Below, one piece after another: positions 527 to 6,835 of a stretch of DNA of 6,835 bases. The translations under genes were made by a program, and so were the position numbers. Under the pieces are notes generated by a model. It searched no databases. It was not told where the DNA came from and saw only the letters and a program-made list of their open reading frames with translations. The stretch lies in the NCBI GenBank assembly GCA_028685275.1, contig JAQUEG010000039.1:1-6835 (forward strand). Reading direction: 5' to 3'. Source of the DNA: Bacilli bacterium (GTDB lineage Bacteria > Bacillota_I > Bacilli_A > RF39 > UBA660). Positions within the stretch are counted from its first letter, which is position 1; the number at the start of each line of letters is the position of its first letter.

Positions 527-838
527 TTAAATGCCAATTACATTTTCAACATCCAAAACAAAAGTAATTCCTTTTCCTTTTTCCTTGATATTTAACTTAC
601 TTGTTATTTCATCAATAACGAATTTTTCTTTTTCCTGCTCAACTACAATCATAATAATTTCTTTTTCAGGTTCAATCGGAAACCCAAATATTTTTCCTTT
701 TTCATAAATACTAGAACCACGACCATTAATTACAGTACCACCTTCGGCACCTCCTTCTTTAGAAGCCGCAATTACATTAGCTGCCATCCCCTTATCAACA
801 ATAGTAATAATTAATTTATACTTTTTATCATTATCCAT
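527..838 (-). CDS. PII-like regulator 2 of the DUF1538 operon (P-II family, divergent)
   Basis: Small (103 aa) soluble protein of the PII/GlnB superfamily, probably a trimer that senses a small ligand and controls a partner membrane protein. The ferredoxin-like pattern is visible: strand YKLIITIV (7-14), a helix region, a T-loop segment (about 39-60, GRGSSIYEKGKIFGFPIEPEKE region), strand EIIMIVVE (60-67), helix, then a B-loop/C-terminal strand GKGITFVLDV (88-97) that aligns with GDGKIFVFDV of GlnB. The Lys of the canonical GDGK motif is replaced by Ile (GKGI), and the T-loop Tyr51 motif YRGAEY of GlnB/GlnK is absent. It therefore should not be named glnB or glnK. It lies two bases downstream of a second PII-like gene and last in the DUF1538 cluster. 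The Shine-Dalgarno AAGGTG lies nine bases upstream. Regulation of the adjacent membrane proteins is inferred from context; the ligand is unknown. Confidence 0.85.
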   Translation of the reverse strand: MDNDKKYKLIITIVDKGMAANVIAASKEGGAEGGTVINGRGSSIYEKGKIFGFPIEPEKEIIMIVVEQEKEKFVIDEITSKLNIKEKGKGITFVLDVENVIGI

Positions 839-840
839 TT

Positions 841-1191
841 TTAATCACACCTTTCTTCTATATTTAATAAACTTCTTAAGCCATACCATTCTTTCAAATT
901 TATAACCAGCGCAATTCCAGTTCCTGGTTCGGTTAATTTTCCAACCTTTGTTACCCTTGTTAAAAGTGATTTAATTTTTGTTGCTTTTTCAATCACTAAA
1001 ATAATTTCTTTTTCGGGTGCAAATTTAATTCCAAAAATATTTTCACAAAGATTTTTGTCAACACTACCTTCACCATAAAAGATAGTCCAACCCATAATTT
1101 TTTCTTTCATTAATCGTTTTATTATTTTATGAGATTGACCACGATTAATAATTATTATTACTAATTTATATATATCATTTTTATTATCCAT
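841..1191 (-). CDS. PII-like regulator 1 of the DUF1538 operon (P-II family, divergent)
   Basis: A 116-aa PII-superfamily protein, paralogous to the gene just downstream. Both share the block IFG-x3-xPEKEII-x-V: residues 52-65 here (IFGIKFAPEKEIIL) and 50-63 in the neighbour, at the end of the T-loop. The first strand is IYKLVIIII (7-15). The B-loop region reads PGTGIALVINL (89-99), keeping the GxG of GDGK but not the Lys. The T-loop differs strongly from its paralogue (GEGSVDKNLCEN, with a Cys at 49), and a short C-terminal extension ends in ERCD. Two diverged PII-like subunits in tandem suggest a heterotrimer or two sensors with different ligands. GGAGG at 1200-1204 lies inside the last codons of the upstream membrane gene, eight bases before the start, which indicates translational coupling. 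The family call rests on fold pattern and context; the ligand and target are inference. Confidence 0.8.
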   Translation of the reverse strand: MDNKNDIYKLVIIIINRGQSHKIIKRLMKEKIMGWTIFYGEGSVDKNLCENIFGIKFAPEKEIILVIEKATKIKSLLTRVTKVGKLTEPGTGIALVINLKEWYGLRSLLNIEERCD

Positions 1192-1194
1192 AAT

Positions 1195-1923
1195 TTATTC
1201 CTCCGTCCTTTTATTTCGTTCATATAAACAACCTAAAACGAGAATCATTATAATTGGAATAATTGCCACTAATGATAACATACCAAAATCATCTACTATA
1301 GTATTGAATCCACTAACAGTTTGGGCATAACTAGCAGTAATTACCAAAAGAAAAGTTGCAATTAACGGGCCAATAACAATCCCACCAGCATCAAAAGCGA
1401 TAGCAACAAACAATGGACTAGCATATTTAGTTAAAATAAGAGCGATTAAATAACTAGGGAATACAAAATACCATAATGATAATCCCATTAAAATTCTTAA
1501 AATAGCTAATGATACTGATACTCCTACACCAGTTGCTAAAAAACCCCAAAATAATTTAGGTTTAATATAACCAGTAGTAATTTCTTCTATTTCATCAATT
1601 AAAATTTTTACTGCCGGTTCTGCTAAAGTAACAATAAAACCCAAAACAAAGGCAATTGGGACCATTAACCAGTTATTATTTAGCGATCCAATTGCTTTAC
1701 CAAGCGATGATCCCGCTGCAATAAAACTAATATTAACCCCATGTAAAAAGAAAATTAATCCTATAAAAGTTAATAACATTCCTTTAATAATAGTAATCAT
1801 TTGTGAACGGTTTAATTTTAATAAAAATATTTGCATAATTACCAAAATAAGTAATAAAGGAATAAAAGCATAAAAAGATTCTAAAAAAACATCAAAAAAA
1901 CCATTTGTTAATTCTTTAATCAT
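1195..1923 (-). CDS. DUF1538 family integral membrane protein, second half-gene
   Basis: A very hydrophobic 242-aa protein with about six or seven membrane segments (roughly 18-36, 45-65, 87-105, 124-146, 150-166, 169-200, 214-233). It carries the hallmarks of the DUF1538 family: GVNIS...GSSLGKAIG (62-79), AEPAV (101-105) and FDAGGIVIGP (177-186). The small-residue-rich motifs inside membrane stretches look like discontinuous helices, as in secondary transporters or channels. The same three motifs occur at similar places in the neighbour encoded upstream, so the two are duplicated halves. In other bacteria DUF1538 often occurs as one protein of double length. The start ATG overlaps the upstream TGA (ATGA), and GGGGGTGA lies seven bases before it. 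The charged tail RNKRTEE is probably cytosolic, where the PII-like partners would bind. No substrate is known to me; a transport role is inference. Confidence 0.88.
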   Translation of the reverse strand: MIKELTNGFFDVFLESFYAFIPLLLILVIMQIFLLKLNRSQMITIIKGMLLTFIGLIFFLHGVNISFIAAGSSLGKAIGSLNNNWLMVPIAFVLGFIVTLAEPAVKILIDEIEEITTGYIKPKLFWGFLATGVGVSVSLAILRILMGLSLWYFVFPSYLIALILTKYASPLFVAIAFDAGGIVIGPLIATFLLVITASYAQTVSGFNTIVDDFGMLSLVAIIPIIMILVLGCLYERNKRTEE

Positions 1924-2609
1924 CCGATAATCACCCCCAATATAAGGACTGCTAAAATTGGGCCAATAGAAGCCAGAGCAACAAAACCAAAACTTTCTTC
2001 TGTTCCTTTGGCAATTCCTTTGATTGAAGTAAGGCCAAGTCCTAATGCCAAAAGAAACGGCGATATTATTGGTCCGGTTGTTACTCCACCAGAATCAAAT
2101 GCAATCGTGAAAAACTGATAAGGTGCTAGATATGAAAAAATAAAAATAAAAATATAGCAACTAATCAATAAGGTTTTTAAAGAAATATTGAAAATAAACC
2201 GAAGTAAAGCAAGACCTAAAAATATACCTACCCCTAAAGCCATAACTATTATTAATAAATAACTAGGAACAATTCCATTTATTACAATATCAGTTTGCGG
2301 TGCAAAAACTAAAACAGCTGGTTCTGCTACTGTCAAAGCAAAACCTAAAGCTACTATTAAACCAATTACAAACCATAAACTAGTTTTTGTAATTAATGAT
2401 TGCCCAATTTTTTTACCAAGGGGCAACAAACTAACATTCGCACCAATTACAAATAAAATAAAGCCAATTGTTGCCATTAATACACCAATTACAAAAATAA
2501 TAATTGATTTTATTGATATATCAATAAACAATAACAATAAAATAAAAATAAAAATAGTTAACGGAATAATTGAATAAATTATTTCTAAAATAATATCTTT
2601 TATATTCAT
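1920..2609 (-). CDS. DUF1538 family integral membrane protein, first half-gene
   Basis: A 229-aa polytopic inner-membrane protein and the first gene of the DUF1538/PII-like operon. Hydrophobic segments lie at about 12-29, 34-57, 78-102, 115-138, 143-163, 166-192 and 207-228. Conserved family motifs are GANVSLLPLGKKIG (56-69), AEPAV (95-99) and FDSGGVTTGP (171-180). This copy keeps more polar residues in the last motif (Ser, Thr, Thr) than its partner (Ala, Ile, Val, Ile), so it may line the substrate path while the partner has drifted. AGGAGG at 2617-2622 precedes the start by seven bases, and an extended -10 promoter lies just upstream. The 4-nt ATGA overlap with the next gene implies coupled synthesis and probably a one-to-one complex. 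Family assignment is good; function is uncharacterised as far as I know. Confidence 0.88.
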   Translation of the reverse strand: MNIKDIILEIIYSIIPLTIFIFILLLLFIDISIKSIIIFVIGVLMATIGFILFVIGANVSLLPLGKKIGQSLITKTSLWFVIGLIVALGFALTVAEPAVLVFAPQTDIVINGIVPSYLLIIVMALGVGIFLGLALLRFIFNISLKTLLISCYIFIFIFSYLAPYQFFTIAFDSGGVTTGPIISPFLLALGLGLTSIKGIAKGTEESFGFVALASIGPILAVLILGVIIG

Positions 2610-2616
2610 TATTAGG

Positions 2617-2622
2617 CCTCCT
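2617..2622 (-). promoter_or_regulatory. Ribosome binding site of the first DUF1538 gene
   Basis: A perfect AGGAGG lies seven bases before the ATG at 2609. It fixes the start and marks the first gene of this operon as strongly translated. Confidence 0.8.
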
Positions 2623-2645
2623 AGGTGTATTTTCTACCTTAAATA

Positions 2646-2673
2646 ATTATATCATATTTCAACTATTTTCGAA
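2646..2673 (-). promoter_or_regulatory. Promoter of the DUF1538/PII-like operon
   Basis: On the minus strand there is a perfect -10 TATAAT (2646-2651) with an upstream TG one base away (2653-2654), which makes an extended -10. A weak -35 TTCGAA (2668-2673) lies 16 bases upstream. Initiation near 2639 would give a leader of about 30 bases before the DUF1538 start. The promoter sits directly downstream of the terminator of the preceding operon, so the two minus-strand operons look independently transcribed. Confidence 0.65.
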
Positions 2674-2682
2674 TTAAATATT

Positions 2683-2708
2683 AAAAAAAACAATCAATTA
2701 CGATTGTT
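2683..2708 (-). terminator. Intrinsic terminator of the activase operon
   Basis: On the minus strand a 7-bp stem AACAATC/GATTGTT (2702-2708 with 2689-2695) closes a six-base loop and runs into eight Ts (2683-2690). The TAA stop of the activase gene (2698-2700) lies in the loop, so the 5' arm is still coding. The stem is AT-rich and modest, but the T-tract is long. Confidence 0.72.
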
Positions 2709-3660
2709 CTTTTATTTTAATAGCACCATTCTCACAACGATTACCCCAAGAATCAATTAAGTAACCATCTTTAAACACACATATAATTTCACAATTATTA
2801 GCACATTTCTTACACTCAACACCTCTAGTTTCAAATTCAATTTCATTTATATCAAAATCAAAATCTTTTTCTGATTTTTTATTCTTTGCTAATATTGCCA
2901 CTCCTAAAGCCCCCAATAAATGAGAATTAGGATCAACTATTATTTCTTCTTTTGTAACATCACTAAAAGCTTTAATAACACCAATATTTTTACTAACACC
3001 ACCTTGAAAAACAATCGGTGATTTAATTTTTTTACCTTTACCTACATTATTTAAATAATTAGTTACTACTGCTTTACATAAACCAGCAACTATATCCTCA
3101 CGACGATGCCCAATTTGCATTTTATGAACAAGATCTGATTCCGCAAAAACAGTACAACGCGCGGCAATATTAGTTGGATTATTACTTTGTAGTGCTAAAG
3201 GACCAAATTCTTCTACTTCTAGTCCTAATCTTCGTGCTTGACTAGTTAAAAAGGCTCCTGTTCCCGCCGCACATAAAGTATTCATCGCATAATCAACTAC
3301 TATCCCATCTTCAATTATAATTATTTTAGAATCTTGTCCCCCAATTTCGAAAATTGTTCTAACTTCCGGATATAAAGAAGTAGTGCCAATCGCATGCGCT
3401 GTTATCTCATTTTTAACTACATTAGCACCTAAAATAGTTCCAGTTAATTTACGAGCTGAACCAGTTGTACCTACACCTACCACTTTATATTTTTTTTGTT
3501 CAAATTGATTTGCTAATTCACTAATTAATCTTTTAACCGCGCCAATTGGATTTCCTTCCGTCCAAAGATAAGCTTCTGCTAATATTTTATTATTTTTATC
3601 AATAATAACACCTTTAGTCGAAATTGAACCAACATCAACACCTAAATATGCTTTTTTCAT
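2698..3660 (-). CDS. Acyl-CoA dehydratase activase (BadF/BadG/BcrA/BcrD ATPase family, HgdC-like) with Cys-rich tail
   Basis: ATP-hydrolysing Fe-S protein that in this family injects a low-potential electron into a partner protein. It is 320 aa, somewhat longer than HgdC (about 260). The ASKHA-fold ATPase signs are GVDVGSISTKGVI (7-19, phosphate 1), GVGTTGSAR (62-70), FEIGGQDSK (104-112) and FQGGVSKN (218-225). The two Cys that hold the [4Fe-4S] cluster between subunits of the homodimer are C130 in NTLCAAGTGAF and C169 in ARCTVFAESDLV. The extra C-terminal part (283-309) has Cys at 283, 286, 290, 294 and 309 and the end GNRCENG. A similar block links activase and DUF2229 parts in large fused homologues. 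It is the last gene of the operon, and its ATG overlaps the preceding TAA by one base (TAATG). Family is certain; the electron acceptor is unknown. Confidence 0.93.
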   Translation of the reverse strand: MKKAYLGVDVGSISTKGVIIDKNNKILAEAYLWTEGNPIGAVKRLISELANQFEQKKYKVVGVGTTGSARKLTGTILGANVVKNEITAHAIGTTSLYPEVRTIFEIGGQDSKIIIIEDGIVVDYAMNTLCAAGTGAFLTSQARRLGLEVEEFGPLALQSNNPTNIAARCTVFAESDLVHKMQIGHRREDIVAGLCKAVVTNYLNNVGKGKKIKSPIVFQGGVSKNIGVIKAFSDVTKEEIIVDPNSHLLGALGVAILAKNKKSEKDFDFDINEIEFETRGVECKKCANNCEIICVFKDGYLIDSWGNRCENGAIKIKEQS

Positions 3661-4727
3661 TACCTCTTTTCCTTCCTCATTTCAATCATATCATAAAATG
3701 CTTCTAATCTAGTTTTAATCCCCGTTTCACTAGTTTGCGTATCAAAACTTAAATACAAAATAGGAATTTTATAATCATTACTAATATTCTGTAATACTGA
3801 CATTGCATCTGCTTCTGGCATACAACCAAACGATTTAACATGAATAAGACCATCATACCCATCTTTTGCTAAACGAAGAGCTTCGCTTACTGTATCCGTT
3901 CCGGTCGCTCCAATATCATATTGTAAATAACCTTTAATTCTAGTTTTAATATCTTTATCTTTTCTTAAAAATAAACTATTAGAAATATTCATAGTTCTAG
4001 TAATAACCATTCCTTTTTTAGCTAATTCTTTCTCTATATAATGATTACTAAATGGTTCCATAATAGTATAATATTCACCTATTATCCCGACTCTTAATGG
4101 TTTTTTTGGTTTTTTTGTTTTAATAATTTTAAATTGTTTATAATAATTTTGATAAACATCATTCATTTCTTTTTTTGTTTTAACTTTTCTTAATGCTTCT
4201 AAAAATTCTTTTTGTAATTTGTCAAAACTACCACTTACTACTTCAAAGCCAACATTTTCCCGAATAAAACCTTCTACTTTGTCAATTATCTTAACCATTC
4301 TAATCATTAACGCCATGTAATTTGTTAATTTACTAATTGATAAACGAGGATTAACTTTTTTAAAATCAGAAAAAAAAGTATATGGTTTACGATAACTAAC
4401 TTTAGCTAAATTAATAAAAATAAAATCATAACCTAAATCCTTTAAAATTTGTTCATGTAATTCGCCATAATAACCCAAACGACATAACCCACCTGTTTGC
4501 ATTAAAGTGTTCGCACCCTCTTCTAAGGCTTCAATATAATTACCTAAATTGTATTTAAATGGTGAACAAACAAATTCTGGACTATGCATACTACCTAATT
4601 CTAATGTTTTTTTTGTAATTGGTGGTGGAATAATATAATCAGCATCTAAAGCATTTTTAACCAAAAATTCAATTGCTACCCAATAATTCCCAAGATGCGG
4701 AAAACTAACTTTCTTTTTGTTTTTCAT
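3660..4727 (-). CDS. 2-hydroxyacyl-CoA dehydratase (HgdB-like) family protein, accessory reductase component
   Basis: A 355-aa protein of the HGD-D/CoA-activase-associated family, likely an Fe-S cluster reductase partner of the downstream activase. Family motifs are VSFPHLGNYW (7-16), LELGSMHSPEFVCSPFKYNLGNYIEA (42-67, Cys54), GGLCRLGYYGE (79-89, Cys82), a basic linker at 195-212, the second-domain start RVGIIGEYY (212-220), SFGCMPEADA (299-308, Cys302) and the C-terminal LSFDTQTSETGIKTRLEAF (326-344). Three Cys at such positions could bind one [4Fe-4S] or a double-cubane cluster. The usual GG-x-GPCR-x-GYY segment is shortened to GGLCRLGYY, losing one Cys position seen in some homologues. The start lies inside the end of the upstream gene (23-base overlap), with AAGGA at 4739-4743 as ribosome site. 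It lacks companions that would mark a true dehydratase, so a redox accessory role is more likely. The substrate is unknown. Confidence 0.85.
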   Translation of the reverse strand: MKNKKKVSFPHLGNYWVAIEFLVKNALDADYIIPPPITKKTLELGSMHSPEFVCSPFKYNLGNYIEALEEGANTLMQTGGLCRLGYYGELHEQILKDLGYDFIFINLAKVSYRKPYTFFSDFKKVNPRLSISKLTNYMALMIRMVKIIDKVEGFIRENVGFEVVSGSFDKLQKEFLEALRKVKTKKEMNDVYQNYYKQFKIIKTKKPKKPLRVGIIGEYYTIMEPFSNHYIEKELAKKGMVITRTMNISNSLFLRKDKDIKTRIKGYLQYDIGATGTDTVSEALRLAKDGYDGLIHVKSFGCMPEADAMSVLQNISNDYKIPILYLSFDTQTSETGIKTRLEAFYDMIEMRKEKR

Positions 4728-5643
4728 TTACAACATCCTTCTTTAATTTTATTATATCAACAAAACTTTCTAATCTAGTTTCCATTCCGGCATTTCCTTC
4801 TTGTTCATCTAAAACTAAATTTAAAATAGGCTTTCCCTTAACTTTTCTAATAATCATTTCATTAACTAAAGAATCAGGGCCGCACGGAAAAGAACTCATT
4901 AAAACAATACCGTCAACTTGCTTTTGATATAACTTTATCGCTCCTAATAATTCTTTATTATAGGTCCATGGTAATGTTGGACTCATTTCTTTAGCTTCTT
5001 GTTTTGCTTCTTGTTTAGGCGAAATTTCACCGATTATAATAATGCAATCTAATTTTTCTAAATATTTAACAATTGGTTCGCCAACAAATTTATCATATAT
5101 GTTATAAGCATGAGAAACTATCAATACCTTTAATTCACTATCACGTTTTAATAATTCTTGTTGTTTTTTTAATTCTAATTGAAAATAAGTTTTTTCAGCT
5201 TGCTTAGCCATAAAATATGCTCTAATTATTTCAAATTTACGTTTATTTAATTCTTTTCCCATTTTCATAAAAGCCTTAAACTCTGTTTGTTTTTTACGAT
5301 GATCAATATTATAATTTAATATTTTTATATTTTGATCCCGAAAAGTATTAGCAATTACATCATAAGCAGCTTGAAATTTAGTACAAACAACTTCCCCTAA
5401 ACCAAAATTAGCAATGCGAGGGACTAAAATATAATCACACTTATCAATTAAATAATGAACGTGACCTAAATAAATTTTTGAAGATAAGCAGCTTTCATCC
5501 ATCGCATAATTAATGCCATCTTTAACAATTTGACGATTAGTTTCTGGACTTAAAACAATTTCACAACCTAATTCATGAAAAAAAGTTTCCCATAAATAAC
5601 GATATTTATAATACAAAAAAGCTCTTGGAATCCCTATTTTCAT
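4705..5643 (-). CDS. Acyl-CoA dehydratase activase-related protein (DUF2229 family)
   Basis: First gene of the three-gene operon, 312 aa from the preferred start. The N-terminus MKIGIPRAFLYYKYRYLW and ELGCEIVLSPETN are typical of DUF2229. Further motifs, numbered from the first of two Met codons, are AMDESCLSSKIYLGHV (48-63, Cys53), VLIVSHAYNIYDKFVGEP (174-191), SSFPCGPDSLV (251-261, Cys255) and LDEQEGNAGMETRLESF (279-295). Cys28, 53, 70, 88, 201 and 255 are available; 53 and 255 sit in the conserved motifs and are the best cluster-ligand candidates. DUF2229 normally occurs inside large fused activase proteins; here it stands alone, as in some Firmicutes. Two ATGs stand in tandem (5646 and 5643). 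The second has the better Shine-Dalgarno spacing and gives the usual MKIGIPR start. It probably works with the two following gene products in ATP-driven electron transfer. Confidence 0.86.
   Translation of the reverse strand: MKIGIPRAFLYYKYRYLWETFFHELGCEIVLSPETNRQIVKDGINYAMDESCLSSKIYLGHVHYLIDKCDYILVPRIANFGLGEVVCTKFQAAYDVIANTFRDQNIKILNYNIDHRKKQTEFKAFMKMGKELNKRKFEIIRAYFMAKQAEKTYFQLELKKQQELLKRDSELKVLIVSHAYNIYDKFVGEPIVKYLEKLDCIIIIGEISPKQEAKQEAKEMSPTLPWTYNKELLGAIKLYQKQVDGIVLMSSFPCGPDSLVNEMIIRKVKGKPILNLVLDEQEGNAGMETRLESFVDIIKLKKDVVNEKQKES
4993..5016 (-). repeat. 12-bp in-frame tandem duplication (KQEA-KQEA)
   Basis: Two adjacent 12-base units in the DUF2229 gene, AAACAAGAAGCA and AAACAAGAAGCT, differ by one base and encode KQEA twice (residues 211-218). 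They fall in a charged, probably exposed loop between two conserved domains. This looks like a recent slippage duplication that the protein tolerates. Confidence 0.7.
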
Positions 5644-5648
5644 CATTA

Positions 5649-5953: not shown

Positions 5954-6430
5954 ATGTCTAAAATAAGTAATGTATTAACTATGATTGAATTGTTAAGTAT
6001 CGGTAAAAAATATAGTATTCAAGAATTATCAGAAAAACTAGAAGTATCACCAAGAATGATAAGAATTTATAAGGATGAGATTGAAATGGCCGGAATCTAT
6101 ATAGACACAATTAAAGGTCCTTATGGTGGTTATGTGTTAAATCAAAATATTAATGTTCCAAAAAGATTTATTACTCCTATTCCATTAAAAATTAAAAATA
6201 AAAGTACTTATAATACTTTTAACAGAGCAATAAAAGAAAAAAGGAAATGTTTTATTGAATATTATTCAAAAGATAAAACTATATCAAAAAGAACTATTCA
6301 TCCATATGATTTAATAATTTTAGGTAATGAATGGGGTATCGCTGCTTATTGTGAGTTAAAAAGCGAAATAAGGCATTTCTATATAAACAGAATAAAATCA
6401 ATCAAATTATTAGAAAATTTTTTTAACTGA
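5954..6430 (+). CDS. HTH-WYL transcriptional regulator, short form
   Basis: DNA-binding regulator of the YafY/WYL type, 158 aa, half the usual length of about 300. An HTH_11-type winged helix occupies about 5-62: SIQELSEKLEVSPRMIRIYKDEIEMAGI, then the wing GPYGGYVL (55-62). A short linker leads to a WYL domain (about 92-154): CFIEYYSK (99-106), HPYDLIILGNEWGIAAY (116-132), IRHFYINRIKSI (139-150). The namesake Trp-Tyr-Leu is Trp-Gly-Ile here (127-129), while the ligand-site Arg in IRHFY (R140) and NRI (R146) are kept. The usual C-terminal WCX extension is absent. WYL domains typically bind nucleic-acid or nucleotide ligands and often control phage-defence or DNA-damage genes. All eight Arg codons are AGA/AGG, unlike the minus-strand genes. 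It likely regulates itself and the SIS-domain gene 55 bases downstream. Confidence 0.88.
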   Translation: MSKISNVLTMIELLSIGKKYSIQELSEKLEVSPRMIRIYKDEIEMAGIYIDTIKGPYGGYVLNQNINVPKRFITPIPLKIKNKSTYNTFNRAIKEKRKCFIEYYSKDKTISKRTIHPYDLIILGNEWGIAAYCELKSEIRHFYINRIKSIKLLENFFN

Positions 6431-6485: not shown

Positions 6486-6835
6486 ATGTTACAGCATAAA
6501 TATACTGAACCAGCTAAAACTAATTTTTCGAAATTAGAAGAAAGGCTTATGCAAATTAATTCAGAGAAAATATTTACTCAATTTCAATTTCTACATAATT
6601 TTTGGTGGCCAATGACAAATTCTAATGGTTTTAAAAAACCAACACTAATTATGGCTACAGGTGGCTCAAAAGCTGCAGCTTATTATTTACAGATGGTATT
6701 AGAAAGCAAAGGAACAATAACTGAAGTAATTGAACCACGTGATTATTCTTATAAAACAAGTATTAATAATTTTGATAGATTGATTGCACTATCTAAAAAT
6801 GGTAAAACAAATGGAATTCAAGAAGCGCTCCATTT
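6486..6835 (+). CDS. Probable SIS (sugar isomerase) domain protein, 3'-truncated by the window edge
   Basis: The first 116 codons of a larger protein. After an N-terminal helical stretch (about 14-40, ending in FWWP) a SIS-like alpha/beta fold begins. TLIMATGGSKAAAYYLQMVLE (53-73) resembles strand 1 with its glycine-rich turn and helix. TEVIEPRDY (79-87) is the next strand, and DRLIALSKNGKTNGIQEAL (97-115) matches the S-x-SG-x-T phosphosugar loop, with S103, G106 and T108 at the key places and Asn at the position of the second Ser. SIS domains bind phosphosugars or related phosphorylated metabolites in isomerases and regulators. The start has GAGGAGG eight bases upstream. The gene follows the WYL regulator directly, so its expression is probably controlled by that protein. 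The domain call is from pattern only, and the rest of the gene is needed to name an activity. Confidence 0.62.
   Translation, partial: MLQHKYTEPAKTNFSKLEERLMQINSEKIFTQFQFLHNFWWPMTNSNGFKKPTLIMATGGSKAAAYYLQMVLESKGTITEVIEPRDYSYKTSINNFDRLIALSKNGKTNGIQEALH

Follow-up and report, generated by a model that had tools for sequence, protein, structure and literature searches.

We analysed a 6,835-nucleotide stretch of DNA (hereafter the window), which corresponds to positions 1 to 6,835 of contig JAQUEG010000039.1 in assembly GCA_028685275.1 of a Bacilli bacterium. The source genome amounts to 874 kb in 166 contigs, of which the window is contig 103, and it is 82% complete. An operon-like run of four minus-strand genes at positions 527-2609 codes for two membrane proteins corresponding to the halves of DUF1538, followed by two small PII-like proteins (Table 1). 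A preliminary description of this locus, made from the sequence alone, had reported a tight spacing of the four genes, and the coordinates bear this out: the first two genes overlap by 4 bases, and the gaps that precede the first and the second PII-like genes are 3 and 2 bases long, respectively. The motifs that it had noticed, AEPAV and FD(S/A)GG in both membrane proteins and FG....PEKEII in both small proteins, are also present. Purine-rich sequences that resemble ribosome-binding sites are found 5' of all four starts, as read from the DNA.

Table 1. Coordinates of the genes of the window and of loci mentioned in the text (d1 and d2, first- and second-position PII types)
Feature	Position	Strand	Length (residues)	Motifs or remarks	Pfam match (E-value)
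umpA-like gene, DUF1538 N-half	1920-2609	-	229	AEPAV, FDSGG	PF07556 (3.1e-59)
umpB-like gene, DUF1538 C-half	1195-1923	-	242	AEPAV, FDAGG	PF07556 (2.5e-58)
PII1, first-position (d1) type	841-1191	-	116	d1 clade on PII tree	
PII2, second-position (d2) type	527-838	-	103		PF00543 (5.6e-7)
PII pair without DUF1538	L206 (G030) 2343-3054				
PII pair without DUF1538	L207 (G207) 3371-4092				
PII pair without DUF1538	G219:C12:50874-51525				
PII pair without DUF1538	G223:C22:8689-9340				
DUF1538 fragment	L210 (G198) 4857-5174		105	no PII gene nearby	
Three PII domains beside DUF1538	L211 (G339) 2537-4888			PII genes precede DUF1538	
First DUF1538 gene, Chelativorans plasmid	L124 4678-4950		about 90	as annotated	
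Dehydratase/activase-type genes of the window (three)	2698-5646	-			
HTH_11/WYL regulator of the window	5954-6430				
Cut-off open reading frame of the window	6486-6833				none

The membrane proteins belong to the DUF1538 family

Both membrane proteins match the Pfam family DUF1538 (PF07556), with 200.3 and 197.3 bits for a gathering score of 22.6, and 68 of 229 aligned positions are identical between them. The only tested member of the family that we found is UmpAB, a pair of DUF1538 proteins from Halomonas zhaodongensis that is reported to exchange Na+, Li+ or K+ for H+ and to give Escherichia coli KNabc tolerance to NaCl and LiCl (PMC5484666). UmpA and UmpB co-immunoprecipitate and are reported to form a heterodimer, and the co-expression of umpA and umpB alone is sufficient for growth of E. 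coli on salt (PMC5484666). The preliminary description had mentioned no described substrate for DUF1538; this needs correction, as UmpAB has been tested as an Na+(Li+,K+)/H+ antiporter (PMC5484666) and is represented by the models NF041627 and NF041628. DUF1538 also appears in a table of families linked to pH adaptation in a 2026 machine-learning paper (PMC13255231).

The gene layout of the window is that of umpA and umpB, i.e. adjacent overlapping genes for two paralogous DUF1538 proteins, one of the N type and the other of the C type, which act as a pair in UmpAB. However, the scores with the equivalog models NF041627/NF041628 are 82.7/66.2 and 89/73.3 bits for cut-offs of 490/500, with an E-value of 2.9e-25 for the umpA-like product and NF041627. 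Because these scores (66-89 bits) are far under the cut-offs, the similarity identifies the two proteins as DUF1538 family members and not as proven UmpAB equivalents. The systems also differ in that the accessible text of the UmpAB paper mentions no PII gene (PMC5484666). The acidic residues located at the helix breaks, in one AEP and one FD.GG motif per half, are conserved in both DUF1538 halves. A sequence search with DUF1538 against the PDB matched no chain, and comparison of a DUF1538 model with solved structures gave no convincing match.

The small proteins are PII relatives

A ferredoxin-like PII domain is found at both positions. PII2 matches the Pfam family P-II (PF00543) with 30.3 bits, above the cut-off of 25. 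PII1 has no Pfam match at an E-value of 0.001, and in the genome search its P-II score was 18.1 bits, under the same cut-off. Nevertheless, a phmmer search with PII2 as the query recovered PII1 at 2.7e-12 in a small set of open reading frames, and PII1 falls into the clade of first-position PII domains described below; for these reasons we count it as a PII relative by sequence. No PF00543-like genes other than those of PII1 and PII2 were found in the source genome, which is 82% complete.

DUF1538 and PII genes are linked across genomes

The preliminary description would have abandoned the DUF1538-PII coupling if it did not recur in other genomes, and it does recur almost throughout. Among 392 genomes drawn evenly from the phylum of the window, 95 contain DUF1538, that of the window included, and PII genes adjoin it in 94 of these, downstream in 93; these genomes are related, so that the counts are not those of independent events. 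If the window is set aside, open reading frames with PII domains are same-strand neighbours of DUF1538 in 93 of 94 genomes, downstream in 92 and upstream in one (G339, with three PII genes). The sole genome of the 95 without linkage, G198, harbours a 105-residue DUF1538 fragment with no PII gene nearby, as if the transporter had decayed and the sensor had been lost with it.

A similar picture was obtained with named contigs, mostly from Clostridia and Bacilli: in 78 of the best 80 of 589 confirmed ones, PII genes are found beside DUF1538, counting L111 and L091, which have one significant PII domain each. In the other two (L063 and L106), the contig ends inside DUF1538 or within about 130 bases of it. 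Nine plasmid records match the umpB-like product of the window, and all seven that were fetched have PII next to DUF1538. The plasmids of the Alphaproteobacteria Methylocystis rosea and Chelativorans code for DUF1538 as separate halves and for only one PII. On the Chelativorans conjugative plasmid (NZ_CP120363.1), the first DUF1538 gene is annotated at about 90 residues and may be truncated or mis-started. In the reverse search, a PII1-type profile, which was built from DUF1538-adjacent genes and also picks up PII2, matched 98 of the 392 genomes, and 94 of these have DUF1538. Loci L001, L002 and L007-L012, which repeat one genome, were dropped before counting; repeated genomes are left among the loci in two cases (L013 and L041; L038 and L137). 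Given the conservation of this linkage, the four-gene arrangement is far beyond chance.

Both pairs appear to be ancient

DUF1538 is usually a single protein of about 500 residues that comprises both halves, and the PII domains of homologues are encoded by two genes or by one tandem gene of about 220 residues. In the window, all four parts are on separate genes. The order of the parts is kept in fused and split loci alike, with G042 and G339 as exceptions.

We built trees of 380 DUF1538 halves, leaving out the single-half loci L018, L124, L142 and L186, and of 340 PII domains, two from each of 170 loci. In the PII tree, the five loci in which one or three PII domains were detected (L111, L123, L124, L129 and L170) were left unlabelled, and L186 (contig end) and loci L189 and later were excluded; in the trees, L187 and L188 replace L005 and L027. 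The label of N- or C-half changes once on the DUF1538 tree, compared with 118-141 times in 20 label shuffles, and the umpA-like and umpB-like products of the window group with the N-halves and the C-halves of fused homologues, respectively (supports of 1.0 and 0.67). Similarly, the label of first or second position after DUF1538 changes once on the PII tree, compared with 105-126 times in 20 shuffles. The first-position domains are united in one clade with a support of 0.82, to which PII1 of the window belongs. With a GlnK root, the second-position domains are not monophyletic, and some deep nodes are weak (0.16 and 0.26). PII2 has second-position-type domains from L187 and L170 as its nearest neighbours (support 0.45), and the lone PII found in each of the two Alphaproteobacteria falls in the large second-position group (support 0.88).

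The mean identity of PII2 is 35.0% to the d2 set and 23.5% to the d1 set. That of PII1, 18.7% to d1 and 21.9% to d2, does not decide its type; as it is no closer to d1 than to d2, the assignment of PII1 is based on its place in the tree and in the gene order. With a single split between d1 and d2 on one tree and a single split between N- and C-halves on the other, the PII proteins and the DUF1538 halves both appear to be hetero-pairs that are ancient and co-inherited. An old, ordered and often fused PII pair fits a hetero-oligomeric sensor.

Three PII domains, one of first-position and two of second-position type, are found beside DUF1538 in each of two loci, L129 (G042) and L211 (G339). In G339, the DUF1538 halves are devoid of some motif residues.

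The ligand site differs from that of GlnK

In GlnK, residues Q39, K58, K90 and R101 contribute to ligand binding (ATP and 2-oxoglutarate), Y51 is the site of uridylylation and R47 is the arginine that enters the AmtB pore. We aligned the PII domains of the 170 loci to E. coli GlnK. K58 is kept in 151 of 170 first and 164 of 170 second domains. The other three ligand residues are almost entirely lost, with Q39 kept in 3 first and 10 second domains, K90 in 0 and 1, and R101 in 1 and 2; R103 is kept in 14 of 170 domains of either type. In the T-loop, where the alignment is uncertain, Y51 is kept in no first and 27 second domains, and R47 in none of either type, its alignment column being a gap. 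Thus, the domains depart from canonical GlnB/GlnK proteins, as only K58 among the ligand residues is kept and Y51 and R47 are mostly or wholly lost. Since most of the GlnK residues concerned are missing, sensing of Mg-ATP and 2-oxoglutarate in the manner of GlnK, uridylylation and plugging of a pore by R47 all appear unlikely. The PII pair would most likely bind another ligand, a nucleotide by analogy with SbtB.

Many homologues have a C-terminal tail peptide

The DUF1538 tails of 165 loci were recovered with an anchor pattern. After the basic residues that come past the last helix, the tail is predicted to be flexible (predicted local distance difference test score of 58), and it frequently ends with an acidic-I-I-x-(F/L/Y)-like peptide at the extreme C terminus, e.g. 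in L041, L026 and L110. We described it by a pattern devised after viewing the tails, which opens with an acidic or amide residue, continues after a spacer of zero to two residues with a pair drawn from I/V/M, and closes with one residue of any kind and a hydrophobic one. Of the unique tails, 129 of the 134 with at least 25 residues contain this pattern, with a median of one residue after it, as do 131 of the 153 with at least nine residues, whereas 1000 shuffles gave 23 on average and never more than 37. The window is devoid of the peptide (the umpB-like product ends with ...ERNKRTEE), and so are many homologues that combine a short tail with tandem PII, e.g. that of Paraclostridium (L121). 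One may speculate that the peptide binds PII.

Neighbouring genes in the window

Three genes on the same strand, of the acyl-CoA dehydratase activase/2-hydroxyglutaryl-CoA dehydratase D kind, are located 88 bases upstream of the umpA-like gene; no relatives of them are found near DUF1538 in 194 other loci. Beyond them are a gene for an HTH_11/WYL regulator and a cut-off open reading frame.

Discussion

We propose, with a probability that we estimate at slightly under 0.6, that the locus codes for a monovalent-cation/H+ antiporter made of two non-identical DUF1538 halves and gated by two PII-like proteins that likely bind its cytosolic face. In the mechanism that we infer, the DUF1538 pair would exchange Na+, Li+ or K+ for H+, as UmpAB does, and the acidic residues at the AEP and FD.GG helix breaks would bind the cation and the proton. 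PII1 and PII2 would assemble as a hetero-oligomer and, at a site that differs from the one in GlnK, bind a small ligand, for which a nucleotide is the most likely candidate. In one ligand state, they would dock on the cytosolic face of the transporter and stop transport. Such docking and block is the most likely mode of control by analogy with known systems, as SbtB blocks SbtA via its T-loop and GlnK likewise blocks AmtB (PMC8352866, PMC10710835). The PII proteins would act as regulators and not as catalytic subunits, because antiport by the tested UmpAB pair needed no cognate PII gene. Of the gated two-subunit transporter put forward in the preliminary description, the general scheme is thus strengthened by the genetic linkage and by the old, ordered and often fused PII pair, but a close copy of GlnK-AmtB is not what the residues indicate.

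As in GlnK-AmtB, a PII-type gene adjoins a transporter gene. However, GlnK is a homotrimer, whereas two different PII domains are encoded here, without R47, most Y51, and the Q39, K90 and R101 residues of GlnK; in addition, no PDB chain matches the DUF1538 transporter family in sequence. The differences with SbtB-SbtA are that PII is duplicated and the transporter is another one, and that neither PII sequence of the window has the C-terminal CGPxGC found in some SbtBs. SbtB was not among the matches of a PDB sequence search with PII2 at an E-value of 1. In NuoL-like operons, too, PII is encoded at the 3' end, next to an ion-transporter-like membrane protein, but there the membrane proteins are COG1009 paralogues and the small PII gene is single (PMC5700660). 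PII control of transporters and, from one case, antiport by DUF1538 are known already. A full-text search of the literature naming DUF1538, with subscription papers mostly outside its reach, showed no link to PII, the letters PII occurring in one paper as part of a peptide motif, and PII terms were also not found in two papers on cable bacteria from the UmpAB literature. What we did not find in print is the near-constant linkage of DUF1538 with PII and a sensor in the form of a duplicated, non-identical PII pair.

Several observations weigh against the gated antiporter. According to a 2023 review, PII gating appears to be restricted to transporters able to be trimers (PMC10710835), whereas UmpAB is reported to be a heterodimer (PMC5484666). 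No DUF1538-PII fusion protein is present among the matches listed. Four genomes (G030, G207, G219 and G223) hold the ordered PII pair as a unit of two genes with no DUF1538 found in the genome (Table 1), so the pair must have a DUF1538-independent role there. Finally, a search of the window and of 31 related loci detected no Na+, Li+, K+ or cyclic di-AMP riboswitch at the gathering threshold. This last result would also suit a PII-gated DUF1538 transporter that moves ammonium, bicarbonate or another small ion here instead of exchanging Na+, Li+ or K+ for H+, as would the distance of the window proteins from UmpAB and the fact that the substrates of the PII-gated transporters named in the 2023 review are sources of nitrogen or carbon, such as ammonium, nitrate/nitrite, urea or bicarbonate (PMC10710835). 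We regard such a substrate as a serious but unlikely possibility, given that UmpAB, the one family member that we found to have been tested, exchanges monovalent cations for H+ and that the helix-break acidic residues are conserved in both halves.

The four genomes also indicate that the PII pair is useful alone, as expected if DUF1538 served as a membrane anchor that sequesters the pair and the released proteins controlled another cytosolic or DNA-bound target; membrane sequestration of GlnK by AmtB appears in the title of a cited reference. This is rather improbable in our view, as 94 of the 98 genomes matched by the PII1-type profile have DUF1538, with the pair adjoining, and the two exceptional loci examined in full (G030 and G207) have no obvious common partner gene. 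It is much less probable still that the two PII-like genes code for ordinary GlnB/GlnK nitrogen sensors that lie beside a transporter by chance. The plasmid relatives are indeed annotated as P-II family nitrogen regulators, and the source genome offers no other PF00543-like candidate, but for each domain type, Q39, K90 and R101 are each missing from at least 160 of the 170 loci and R47 from all, and Y51 is missing from all first and 143 of 170 second domains. Moreover, the pairing and the linkage are far too regular for such a coincidence.

On the basis of the gated antiporter, a broader and decidedly tentative proposal can be made. Across Bacillota, a hetero-duplicated PII, with one type for each transporter half, might gate a non-trimeric, pseudo-two-fold antiporter of monovalent cations and H+, with a single PII in Alphaproteobacteria, and so tie ion and pH homeostasis to a nucleotide signal; in many Bacillota, the acidic-I-I-x-(F/L) tail might be the dock for PII. 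As no convincing match was found among solved structures, a structure of DUF1538 may be informative by itself. If our interpretation is correct, DUF1538 passes from a single tested case to a testable two-part system made of a transporter and a dedicated sensor, and a role is provided for the 'P-II nitrogen regulators' encoded next to a 'protein of unknown function'. PII signalling would then extend to ion and pH balance through a cation/H+ antiporter family.
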